Positions 49,603 to 53,833 of a stretch of DNA of 64,000 nt are shown here, one piece after another. The first letter of the stretch is position 1. The number at the start of each line of letters is the position of its first letter. Origin of the DNA: Diaminobutyricibacter sp. McL0608 (lineage in GTDB: Bacteria > Actinomycetota > Actinomycetes > Actinomycetales > Microbacteriaceae); the NCBI RefSeq assembly GCF_039613825.1, contig NZ_CP154826.1:2108001-2172000 (forward strand), written 5' to 3'. The notes beneath the pieces were generated by a model. The model had not been told where the DNA came from. It worked only from the letters and a program-made list of their open reading frames with translations, and did not search any database. The translations under genes were made by a program, and so were the position numbers.

Positions 49603-50448
49603 CTAGACCGCGTCGCGCCAGGAGTGCGCCGGGGCGTAGCCGAGGACCCGTCGCGCCTTGTCGATCGAGAGCAGCGTGTCGTTCAGCCCGAGGTCACCCT
49701 TCACCGGCACGCCGGGGAAGACCGCTTCGACCAGGTCGACGTTGGGCCGGCTCATCACGGTGTCGGCGGCGGCGATGATGAAGCGGTGGAAGCCGGTCGC
49801 ATCCCAGTCGAGCGCGCGGCGGACAGCCTGAGCCCCGTCGCGACCGTCGATGTAGCCCCACAGGTTCCACTTGCGGAGCATCGGATCGGCGTCGAACGAG
49901 GGGAACTCGGCGTAATCGGCGTCGTCCATCACGTTCGAGAATCGCAGGGCGACGATCTTGAGCGCCGGGTCCCAGCGCACCATCTCGATCGCCATCTGCT
50001 CTTCGAGGTGCTTGACCAGCGAATACGTGCTCTCGGGCCGGGCGGGGTAGTCCTCGTCGACCGGGATGTAGGGCGGCGGCACGTCGAACGGCAGCCCGAG
50101 GACGGTCTCGCTCGACGCATAGACGACGTTGCGGATGCCCGCCCGGCGCGCCGCCTGAAACACGTTGTAGGTGACGCGGATGTTGTTGTGGAACGTCGCC
50201 GCATCGCCGAGGATGCCCGGGGCCGGGATCGCAGCCAGGTGGACGATGGCGTCGAAGCCGTCATGCTTGTCGTCGATGCCGAGGATGGCATCGAGCGTCT
50301 GCCCGAAATCGGTCAGGTCGACTCTGACGAATCCGGGGCCACGCTCCCCCGCGGTGTCGAGATTGATGACCTGGTTACCCTCTTCGGCGAGTGTGCGCAC
50401 AACGGTGCGCCCCAATTTTCCTGAACCACCGGTGACTGCAATGCGCAT
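49603..50448 (-). CDS. NAD(P)-dependent epimerase/dehydratase
   Basis: Extended short-chain dehydrogenase, probably acting on a nucleotide sugar or similar. The NAD-binding motif is VTGGSGKLGRTVVRTL at the N-terminus; DLTDFGQT and VHLAAIPAPG follow. The catalytic Ser and YxxxK are in VYASSE and TYSLVKHLEEQM, where Y-S-L-V-K is intact. Length 281 aa. Substrate is unknown. It converges on fadD and is 34 bases downstream of the peptide deformylase gene on the same strand. Confidence 0.85.
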   Translation of the reverse strand: MRIAVTGGSGKLGRTVVRTLAEEGNQVINLDTAGERGPGFVRVDLTDFGQTLDAILGIDDKHDGFDAIVHLAAIPAPGILGDAATFHNNIRVTYNVFQAARRAGIRNVVYASSETVLGLPFDVPPPYIPVDEDYPARPESTYSLVKHLEEQMAIEMVRWDPALKIVALRFSNVMDDADYAEFPSFDADPMLRKWNLWGYIDGRDGAQAVRRALDWDATGFHRFIIAAADTVMSRPNVDLVEAVFPGVPVKGDLGLNDTLLSIDKARRVLGYAPAHSWRDAV

Positions 50449-50482: not shown

Positions 50483-50974
50483 TCAGAACCAGTCGCTCTC
50501 CCGAACCTGCTTCATCGCTTCGCGCCGGCGCTCCTTGTCGAGCCGGTCGAGGTACAGCGTGCCGTTGAGGTGGTCCGTCTCGTGCTGAAGCGCCTGCGCC
50601 ATCACCCCGGTACCGGAGAGCTCGATGGTGTGGCCCTCCAGGTCGGTCCCGGTCACCCTGGCGAACGGATAGCGCATCGTCGGGAACCACAGTCCGGGAA
50701 CCGACAGACAGCCTTCGTCGACGAGCTCCGGTTCGCCGGAGAGCTCGACGATCTCCGGGTTGAGAATGTACCCGACCTCACCGTCGACGTTGTAACTGAA
50801 CGCCCGCAGGTTCACACCGATCTGCGGCGCAGCCACCCCGGCGCGACCCGGCGGCAGGACGCTGTCGATCAGGTCTTCGACGAGACCGTGCACACCGGCA
50901 TCGATGGTGCCGATCGGGTCGGACACGGTCTTCAGCACGGGGTCTCCGAAGAGGCGGATCTGGCGTTCGGTCAC
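50483..50974 (-). CDS. def: peptide deformylase
   Basis: Iron/zinc hydrolase that removes the N-formyl group from nascent proteins. The three active-site motifs are present: GVAAPQIG (residues 46-53), EGCLSVPG with metal ligand C89, and QHETDHLNG with ligands H131 and H135 and catalytic E132. Length 163 aa. GTG start 16 bases after the mycothione-reductase-like gene, so it may be cotranscribed. The Met-tRNA formyltransferase gene (fmt), often adjacent, is not seen here. Confidence 0.94.
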   Translation of the reverse strand: MTERQIRLFGDPVLKTVSDPIGTIDAGVHGLVEDLIDSVLPPGRAGVAAPQIGVNLRAFSYNVDGEVGYILNPEIVELSGEPELVDEGCLSVPGLWFPTMRYPFARVTGTDLEGHTIELSGTGVMAQALQHETDHLNGTLYLDRLDKERRREAMKQVRESDWF

Positions 50975-50990: not shown

Positions 50991-52412
50991 TCACAGGGCC
51001 TCTTCGGCCTTCAGCAGGGCGTTCTCGACGACTTCGCTCGCGGCAGGATGCGGCCAGTACTGACCGCGGGCGAGCCCACGGACCGAGATCCCGAAGCTCG
51101 CTGCCTGCACGAGCGGCTGGATCAGGATGCTCGCCTCCGGACCGATGATGTGCGCACCGAGGATCTCGCCGCTCTCCCGCTCGACGACGAGCGTGCAGAA
51201 ACCGGTCTCGTCCTCGGTCGCCCACCCGTAGGCGGTGTGCCGGTAGTCCTGCGTGACGGCGACCGCGTCGATGCCGTCACTCAGCGCATCCGCCTCGGTG
51301 AGCCCGAAGTGCGCTATCTGCGGTCGGCTGAAGATCGCGGCCGGGATCGGGCCCGGGTCTCCCCCGATCGGCGAGTCCGGATGCAGGATGTTGTGGGCGA
51401 CCACCCTCGCTTCATGATTCGCGACATGCTTCAGTTTCGTGACCCACGTGATGTCGCCGAGGGCGTAGAGCCCGGGCACTGGGATGCCGCGGCTGAGCAT
51501 CCGCTGCTGGCTGTCGACCACCAGGCGTCCGTCGCTGTACAGGTCGAATCCGGCCGCGGCAGCACCGAGGGTGTCCGTGTTCGCGGTGCGGCCCTGCGCC
51601 ACCAGCACGAGCTCGGTCTCGACCTGGCGACCCGATTCGAGCGTCACCACGAGGTGATCGCCGACGCGGTCGATCGCCTCGACCATCTCTTCGGTCAGAA
51701 GTCGCCACTTCTCGGCAGCGCACTCCGTGAACCGTTCCGAGACCGCGGCGTCGAGGCGGGTGAGGAGTCGTTCCGACCGGGTGACGATCGACACGTCTAC
51801 CCCGAACGACGAGAAGATGTGAGCGAACTCGACCGCCACCGGGCCGCCGCCCACGATCACGAGCGACTCGGGCAGCGATTCGATGCGCATGACCTCATCA
51901 GAGTCGAGGATGGCCGGATCGGGGTCGTAGGACGCCAGCAACGGGCGCGGCCGCGACCCGGCGGCGACGACGATGCGGTCGGAGCGGAGTCGCACACCGC
52001 TCGCGCTCATCAGTGTGTGCTGGTCTTCGAAGCCGAAGGTCTCACGGAAGACGGTGACATTCGGCGAGGTCGCATCGCGGAAAAGGAGACCGGCTTCGGA
52101 GATCGCGTCGGTGCGGGCGAAGATCCTGTCCCGCACGCGCGCCCAGTCGACCGGGTCGACGGATGCGGTCAGTCCGAGCCGCGCACCCGCCGCGGCCGCG
52201 GCTGCGACGTCGGCCACCTGCACGAACATCTTGCTCGGGATCGACGCCGCATTGAGGCTGGCACCGCCGAACCGTTCGCCATCGTCGATCAGCGCCACCG
52301 ACCAGTGTGCGAACTCGGGTCCCACGAGGGCGTTGCCGGAGCCGGCGCCGACGACGATCAGGTCGAAGGTCCGTGCATCCGCCCCAACGCCCGGGGCAGG
52401 CTCAGGAGCCAC
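50991..52412 (-). CDS. mycothione reductase-like flavoprotein without redox cysteines
   Basis: Pyridine nucleotide-disulfide oxidoreductase fold closest to mycothione reductase. FAD motif DLIVVGAGSGNA, NAD(P) motif VIVGGGPVAVEFAHIFSSFG and second FAD motif GLYALGDI are intact, and the C-terminal HPAASEVVENAL keeps the His-Glu pair. The redox motif, normally GGTCLNxGCIPTK, reads GGASLNAASIPSK: both cysteines are serines (S52 AGC, S57 TCG). Disulfide reduction is therefore not expected. Start is taken as GTG 52412 (473 aa), overlapping the MinD-like gene by 11 bases. A diaphorase, quinone reductase or sensor role is possible. Confidence 0.85.
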   Translation of the reverse strand: MAPEPAPGVGADARTFDLIVVGAGSGNALVGPEFAHWSVALIDDGERFGGASLNAASIPSKMFVQVADVAAAAAAGARLGLTASVDPVDWARVRDRIFARTDAISEAGLLFRDATSPNVTVFRETFGFEDQHTLMSASGVRLRSDRIVVAAGSRPRPLLASYDPDPAILDSDEVMRIESLPESLVIVGGGPVAVEFAHIFSSFGVDVSIVTRSERLLTRLDAAVSERFTECAAEKWRLLTEEMVEAIDRVGDHLVVTLESGRQVETELVLVAQGRTANTDTLGAAAAGFDLYSDGRLVVDSQQRMLSRGIPVPGLYALGDITWVTKLKHVANHEARVVAHNILHPDSPIGGDPGPIPAAIFSRPQIAHFGLTEADALSDGIDAVAVTQDYRHTAYGWATEDETGFCTLVVERESGEILGAHIIGPEASILIQPLVQAASFGISVRGLARGQYWPHPAASEVVENALLKAEEAL

Positions 52413-53757
52413 GGTTCGCAGGCAGGCCCTCGACCACGAGGGCTGCGAGCGTGCGGGCGGCATCCTTCGTATACGGCTTCAGGTCCTTGTACGAGATGAC
52501 GGACCCCGCTGCGAGCTGCGGGTCGTAAGGGATGCGGACGATCTCGCGCACACGGGAACGGAAGTGCGACTCGATCTCGTCGAGCTTCACCAGGTTCGTG
52601 CCCTGCGTCGCCGTGTTGAGCGCGACGATTGCGTTGCGCACGAGCTCGCCGTAGCCGTTCGCTTCGAGCCAGGTCAGTGTCTCGGATGCGAGGCGGGCCT
52701 CGTCGACGCTGCCGCCGGAGACGATGACCAGGGAATCCGCGCGCTGGAGCGTCGCACGCATCACCGAGTGGACGATGCCCGTGCCGCAGTCGGTCAGCAC
52801 GATCGAGTAGAACCGGGCGGCCAGGTCGGCGACGACGTTGTAGTCGTTCTCGTCGAACGCTTCGGACAGCAGGGGGTCGGTGTCCGAAGCCAGGATGTCG
52901 AGTCGTGTCTCATCGCGCGAGACGAGCGCCGAGAAGTCGGTGAAGCCGCTGATGCTCGGCGCCTTGTGGACGACATCCCGCACGGTCGCGCGGGTCTGCT
53001 TCGTCACCCGCTCGGACAGGGTGCCCCGGTCGGGGTTGGCGTCGACGGCGATGATGCGGTCTTCGCGGGCGTCGGCGAGAGCCATGCCGAGGAGTGTGGT
53101 GACCGTCGTCTTGCCGACTCCGCCCTTGCGGGTGAGGACGGGCACGAAGCGCGTGCCGCCCTCGAACTGCTTCTGGATGCGGTGATCGAGTTCTTTGCGC
53201 GCCCGCACCTTGGCGGAGTCGCCGAGGTTCAGGGTGTGGAACGTGATCGCGTAGACGAACCGGTTCCAGCCGCCCTCGGGGGCCGGCCGGGTCTTGCGAT
53301 TGACCTCGAGGAGACGGTCGGCCGTCAGCATTGCCGCGGGCTCGGGCTGGGTCGAGTGCTCGCCGCGAAGGCGGTCACGGCGCGACTGGGAGAACTGGTC
53401 GGCGTGATGGACAGGTTCGGAACCGTCGGCGAGGGCCACACCGGCGATCGTGGCGGTCGGTCCGGTGGCGACCCGCGGAGTCACGATGGCCATCGACGTG
53501 GTGGTCGGCTCGCTCGCGTTGACGAAGCCGGGGTTGACCGGCACATCGTCGATCGCGACCGCGATCTCGTCTTCGGGGATCTCCGGACTCGGCACCGGCG
53601 GGAGGTCGACGACGATGCTCAGGCTCTCCGGAAGCGAGATCGCGAGGTCGTCGCCTTCGTCGGGAAGGAGTTCACCGTGGAACTCCTCCGCCGCATCCGT
53701 CGAATCGGATTCGAGGACCTGACCTTGCGCATCGCGCTTCTCCGGCTTTTCTGCCAC
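52402..53757 (-). CDS. MinD/ParA-like ATPase with long N-terminal region
   Basis: Deviant Walker A ATPase. Residues 1-150 are acidic and Pro/Val-rich, probably disordered. The ATPase domain has the signature LTRKGGVGKTTVTTLLGMAL near 210, the IIAVDANPDRGTL Walker A' segment and a switch II-like FYSIVLTDCGTGI. Mycobacterial relatives include MinD-like proteins of secretion (EspI type) and division loci. Start GTG 53757 (451 aa) is chosen because AAGGAG lies nine bases upstream; a TTG six codons earlier lies on that site. It sits between pyc and the flavoprotein gene on one strand. Role unknown. Confidence 0.82.
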   Translation of the reverse strand: MAEKPEKRDAQGQVLESDSTDAAEEFHGELLPDEGDDLAISLPESLSIVVDLPPVPSPEIPEDEIAVAIDDVPVNPGFVNASEPTTTSMAIVTPRVATGPTATIAGVALADGSEPVHHADQFSQSRRDRLRGEHSTQPEPAAMLTADRLLEVNRKTRPAPEGGWNRFVYAITFHTLNLGDSAKVRARKELDHRIQKQFEGGTRFVPVLTRKGGVGKTTVTTLLGMALADAREDRIIAVDANPDRGTLSERVTKQTRATVRDVVHKAPSISGFTDFSALVSRDETRLDILASDTDPLLSEAFDENDYNVVADLAARFYSIVLTDCGTGIVHSVMRATLQRADSLVIVSGGSVDEARLASETLTWLEANGYGELVRNAIVALNTATQGTNLVKLDEIESHFRSRVREIVRIPYDPQLAAGSVISYKDLKPYTKDAARTLAALVVEGLPANRGS

Positions 53758-53833
53758 GTGAACAGTCTCCTTCAATCGTCACAGTCCGTGACTCAGTTTA
53801 GCGTGGAGGCCGATCACACCCCGCCGCGGGGGC

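Follow-up and report, generated by a model that had tools for sequence, protein, structure and literature searches.

In the catalytic cycle described for mycothione reductase (Mtr), electrons pass from NADPH to FAD and on to the Cys39-Cys44 disulfide and Cys39 attacks mycothione; proton transfer is assisted by His442, a member of the His-Glu pair that the other subunit provides (PMC10910545). Relatives without such a cysteine pair have also been described. Irc15p of Saccharomyces cerevisiae, a relative of Lpd, has neither cysteine but still the His-Glu pair; NADH reduces it rapidly, and it donates electrons to menadione, DCPIP and ferricyanide with production of H2O2, while disulfides are not reduced (PMC6296175). 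LpdA is reported to be a quinone reductase and SthA to be devoid of the catalytic His (PMC6296175). Proteins with the cysteines removed in the laboratory (MerA C42A/C47A, 4k7z; RclA C43S, 6kod; S. aureus MerA C43S, 8ajk; C44S and C49S of E. coli Lpd), several of them with structures, are still folded flavoproteins.

Here we consider a gene of Diaminobutyricibacter sp. McL0608 whose product, designated below as Ser-Mtr, is related most closely to Mtr (8qcj, 8rx5; NF005884), being orthologous to it by synteny and tree and retaining the fold, the cofactor motifs and the His-Glu pair, but carries Ser in place of both redox Cys and resides in a genome without the mycothiol pathway. With Irc15p it shares the absence of both cysteines, the retained His-Glu pair and the FAD fold; however, Irc15p stems from a duplication of Lpd1 (Cys changed to Tyr and Ala) and Lpd1 persists, whereas Ser-Mtr is the converted sole orthologue with no Cys-containing Mtr (Cys-Mtr) left. 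LpdA, or NAD(P)H-quinone dehydrogenase (Rv3303c, 1xdi; NF005883), likewise has a disulfide-reductase fold without a working disulfide, but it also lacks the His-Glu pair and forms a separate family, of which the Ser-Mtr genome has its own copy, while the Si-specific soluble transhydrogenase SthA (NF003585) combines this fold with the lack of an intact Cys pair in yet another family. Unlike the laboratory-made mutants, Ser-Mtr is a natural conserved state. It takes its place beside Irc15p, LpdA and SthA as a natural Cys-less member of the superfamily, one that arose without a surviving Cys copy, although as precedents Irc15p and LpdA belong to other superfamily branches and apply by analogy.

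The gene and its lineage

The window, i.e. the whole analysed stretch of 64,000 nucleotides, contains the following features to be discussed, all on the minus strand:

52402-53775, minus strand: upstream gene (ParA/MinD-like ATPase) whose stop runs into the start of mtr; it adjoins mtr in most Cys-Mtr relatives, excluding two
50991-52412, minus strand: Ser-Mtr, a Cys-less mycothione reductase orthologue of 473 amino acids (GTG at 52412, stop at 50991)
50483-50974, minus strand: downstream gene def (peptide deformylase), a conserved neighbour of mtr
52230-52268, minus strand: former redox-disulfide motif, residues 49-61, GGASLNAASIPSK, with Ser52, Ala56, Ser57 and Ser60 for Cys, Gly, Cys and Thr
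51840-51842, minus strand: Pro191 at the nicotinamide gate position, a residue found there only in the two Ser-Mtrs of the alignment
51048-51050, minus strand: His455 of the C-terminal His-Glu pair, retained (103/103 in Cys-Mtrs)
51033-51035, minus strand: Glu460 of the same pair, retained (103/103 in Cys-Mtrs)

The GTG start overlaps the stop of the ParA-like gene by 11 nt, so that both are probably co-translated; the ATPase itself carries a long N-terminal extension. In hmmscan, Ser-Mtr passed the cut-off of the mycothione reductase family NF005884 (557.8 bits against 501) and stayed below that of the stricter TIGR03452 (500.7 vs 635.65 bits), while its scores for LpdA (NF005883, 177.9 vs 479) and SthA (NF003585, 205.6 vs 465 bits) place it outside both families. 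The FAD and NAD(P)H Rossmann domains, the dimer domain and the His-Glu pair of the flavoprotein disulfide reductase fold are all present, and the predicted structure (pLDDT 91.6) is closest to the solved Mtr 8qcj (Z 48.5, rmsd 1.4 A over 452 residues).

Nine genomes and a named Rathayibacter share the common gene order ParA2, pyc, (parA), mtr, def, (epimerase), acs, glcK, plsC, with the exceptions that parA is not beside mtr in two genomes and that one contig stops within the cluster. Since this order is shared with Cys-Mtr relatives, Ser-Mtr is a positional orthologue rather than a duplicate. The set of neighbours, being identical in Cys-Mtr genomes, proved uninformative as a functional clue. 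A gene for NAD-dependent epimerase/dehydratase (window 49603-50448), located between def and acs in both genomes with Ser-Mtr and in no other compared genome, is the sole genus-specific insert in this neighbourhood. In the tree, the Ser pair forms a clade (100/100) nested inside the Cys-Mtrs of Microbacteriaceae (97/97), its stem branch being somewhat long (0.36). The derivation from mycothione reductase proposed by the first-pass annotation is therefore borne out by the NF005884 match, synteny and tree, and as a gene lineage Ser-Mtr is a mycothione reductase. As an enzyme it is probably not one, having neither the CxxxxC disulfide nor, by gene content, a mycothiol-making genome around it, and "mycothione reductase" is therefore wrong as its annotation.

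The search for a canonical Cys paralogue, suggested earlier as a check, revealed no second Mtr in the window genome, so Ser-Mtr is its sole Mtr. Four other relatives from the family are encoded there: dihydrolipoyl dehydrogenase, an LpdA-type NAD(P)H-quinone dehydrogenase, an RclA-like protein scoring below the RclA family cut-off, and one further, unassigned member. The LpdA-type protein (C1:945690-946634, about 1033-2481 of the locus) reaches 718.8 bits with NF005883, and its motif GGSAVITDVVPSK has Cys at neither redox position. Among the homologues, a contig labelled as an Acidobacteria MAG bears an Mtr of actinobacterial type whose closest company is Micrococcaceae, probably because of a binning error.

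The redox motif and selective constraint

Compared with the canonical motif GGTCLNxGCIPTK, both catalytic cysteines are replaced in Ser-Mtr, and the codons read in the first pass are confirmed: AGC for Ser52 (window 52257-52259) and TCG for Ser57 (52242-52244), both in the minus-strand gene. These positions correspond to Cys39 and Cys44 of the Rhodococcus Mtr and are occupied by Cys in 103/103 other aligned Mtrs. The possibility that the motif was misaligned and true cysteines lie nearby did not materialize, as the alignment offers no replacement: over the whole sequence the only cysteines of Ser-Mtr are residues 231 and 406, and residue 231 is Ser in the sister species. The His-Glu pair was correctly described as intact, both residues being invariant in the alignment. 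The gate position, where the Ser pair has Pro191, corresponds to Phe178 of the Rhodococcus Mtr; every Cys-Mtr carries F, Y, A, V or S there. The Ser pair further carries Lys326, adjoining the conserved LKHVANHEA stretch. Both features could shift the tuning of the flavin.

The sister species of the genus encodes a protein 90% identical to Ser-Mtr with the motif GGTSLNAASIPSK. As to the conservation of the Ser motif within a clade, it is shared in the genus (2/2 genomes compared) but not beyond it: all other Mtrs read, namely the 103 aligned and those from 15 further Microbacteriaceae loci, have the canonical motif. Across 396 Actinomycetota genomes, a DNA pattern for the Ser-Ser motif, restricted to one combination of Ser codons, matched no genome but that of the window, and no Ser-type Mtr turned up in a literature search.

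Between the two Ser-Mtrs dN/dS is 0.093 at dS 0.59, while pairs of Cys-Mtrs in the family give 0.11-0.35; normalized to six neighbouring genes, the dN of mtr is 2.2 in the Ser pair vs 1.35-4.8 in Cys pairs. Conserved columns were defined as those conserved in at least 95% of the 103 Cys-Mtrs, which yields 104 positions, and 98 of them are kept in Ser-Mtr. Only four are changed in both Ser proteins (Cys to Ser at 52, Gly to Ala at 56, Cys to Ser at 57 and Thr to Ser at 60), all inside the redox motif, for which the chance is ~1e-4 if changes fall at random over conserved columns. By these comparisons Ser-Mtr is under purifying selection, with the parts serving FAD, NADPH and dimerization as well as the His-Glu pair unchanged. 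The gene is not decaying, in agreement with the earlier view, and is constrained as strongly as normal Mtrs.

Mycothiol genes in the genus and the family

Profile search of the genomes found no MshC in either Ser-Mtr species: the strong match to the MshC model in the window genome is only the cysteinyl-tRNA synthetase, and the sister species has a single match of equal strength. In two relatives mshC lies between two genes that are 148 bp apart in the window genome (C1:2040864-2041013), i.e. its absence from the conserved locus is clean. Full-length MshA was also not found in either species, where only a partial-length paralogue, present in Cys-Mtr genomes too, is detected; full-length matches occur in 7/7 Cys-Mtr genomes tested, though themselves below the curated cut-off. 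Mca, above cut-off in 7/7 tested Cys-Mtr genomes, is absent from both. Despite these losses, an orthologue of MshD (mycothiol synthase) is kept in synteny (C1:2912694-2913521), possibly in another acetyltransferase role. By gene content, the genus appears to have lost mycothiol synthesis, and because MshC, full-length MshA and Mca are missing, mycothione reductase is no longer needed. As a candidate replacement system, CoA-disulfide reductase gave no match above cut-off in any of nine genomes.

Among 200 genomes of Microbacteriaceae, 25 bear Mtr, and those clearly without MshC are just the two with the Ser motif. Cys-Mtr was found in 22/117 MshC-positive and 0/82 MshC-negative genomes (199 scorable; Fisher p 3.9e-6, phylogeny not corrected), leaving out one Cys-Mtr genome of 0.9 Mb with an ambiguous MshC match of 300.6 bits, so that the Ser-Mtrs are the sole two Mtrs on the MshC-negative side. 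The loss of the cysteines and of mycothiol counts as a single evolutionary event, in one genus represented by two genomes. Other MshC-less Microbacteriaceae are without Mtr, while in this genus the gene has survived, with changes at conserved positions confined to the redox motif, which makes it a natural experiment on the fate of an enzyme whose substrate pathway vanishes. As a separate observation, 95 of the 117 MshC-positive Microbacteriaceae give no Mtr match at E 1e-60, so that a recognisable mycothione reductase seems to be missing from many family members that likely make mycothiol; sparse use of mycothiol in Microbacteriaceae was noted earlier (PMC6106888).

Probable function and competing explanations

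By the established chemistry of the family, Ser-Mtr cannot reduce mycothione or any other disulfide by the classical mechanism, while the NADPH to FAD step should survive, since the fold is intact in the predicted model. Ser-Mtr was probably given another redox job after mycothiol loss, and the best explanation, with a probability of about 0.62, is that a former mycothione reductase, orphaned by this loss, now acts as a Cys-less NAD(P)H:acceptor flavoreductase of diaphorase or quinone type, which is favoured because of the Irc15p and LpdA precedents. The loss of mycothiol synthesis in the ancestor would have left the disulfide half of the enzyme without a substrate, and both cysteines would then have turned into Ser along with two nearby changes in the same motif. 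NAD(P)H would reduce FAD, which would hand its electrons directly, bypassing the dithiol step, either to an acceptor occupying the former disulfide pocket or to a quinone or O2, with the His-Glu pair as a presumable proton donor; the retention of this pair hints that substrate binding at the si-face may persist. By analogy, the diaphorase, quinone reductase or redox sensor roles put forward by the first-pass annotation are plausible; its account holds for the origin, the loss of cysteines and the absence of both decay and sequence error, but it missed the absence of the mycothiol pathway as the explanation. A more particular proposal is in-place conversion, with FAD itself handing hydride to a substrate lodged in the former mycothione pocket, the His-Glu pair donating a proton and the new activity gained by deletion of the catalytic disulfide; we consider it tentative and rather unlikely. 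In any case, Ser-Mtr provides a clean test case for a disulfide reductase taking a new function.

There is also some small chance that Ser-Mtr is a non-catalytic or moonlighting product, namely a dimeric binding or sensing protein whose FAD/NADPH state is read by a partner, with incidental electron transfer. Such a role would be reminiscent of Irc15p, which is associated with microtubules and changes shape with redox state (PMC6296175), and would fit the overlap of the start codon with the gene of a ParA-like ATPase; yet this neighbour is common to Cys-Mtr genomes and hence not specific, and conserved columns outside the motif, the His-Glu pair included, are as conserved as in Cys-Mtrs. It is improbable that mycothiol or its close analogue is still made by an unrecognised route, Ser-Mtr binding it or reducing another mycothiol adduct: the syntenic MshD orthologue and the retained conserved columns outside the motif, pocket positions among them, would agree with this, but MshC, full-length MshA and Mca are found in neither species and the mshC locus shows a clean absence of the gene. 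Slow decay of an orphan gene on its way out, with cysteines lost first, is strongly disfavoured: the substrate pathway is indeed gone and Mtr is missing from other MshC-less genomes, but dN/dS is 0.093 between two species that have diverged by about 0.6 synonymous changes per site, no relaxation is seen against neighbouring genes and the shared changes in conserved columns are confined to the motif. Finally, sequencing or assembly error, doubted already in the first pass, is refuted since the independent genome of the second species has identical substitutions embedded in different synonymous codons, the motif stretch reading GCC GCA TCC in the second species vs GCG GCG TCG in the window genome.
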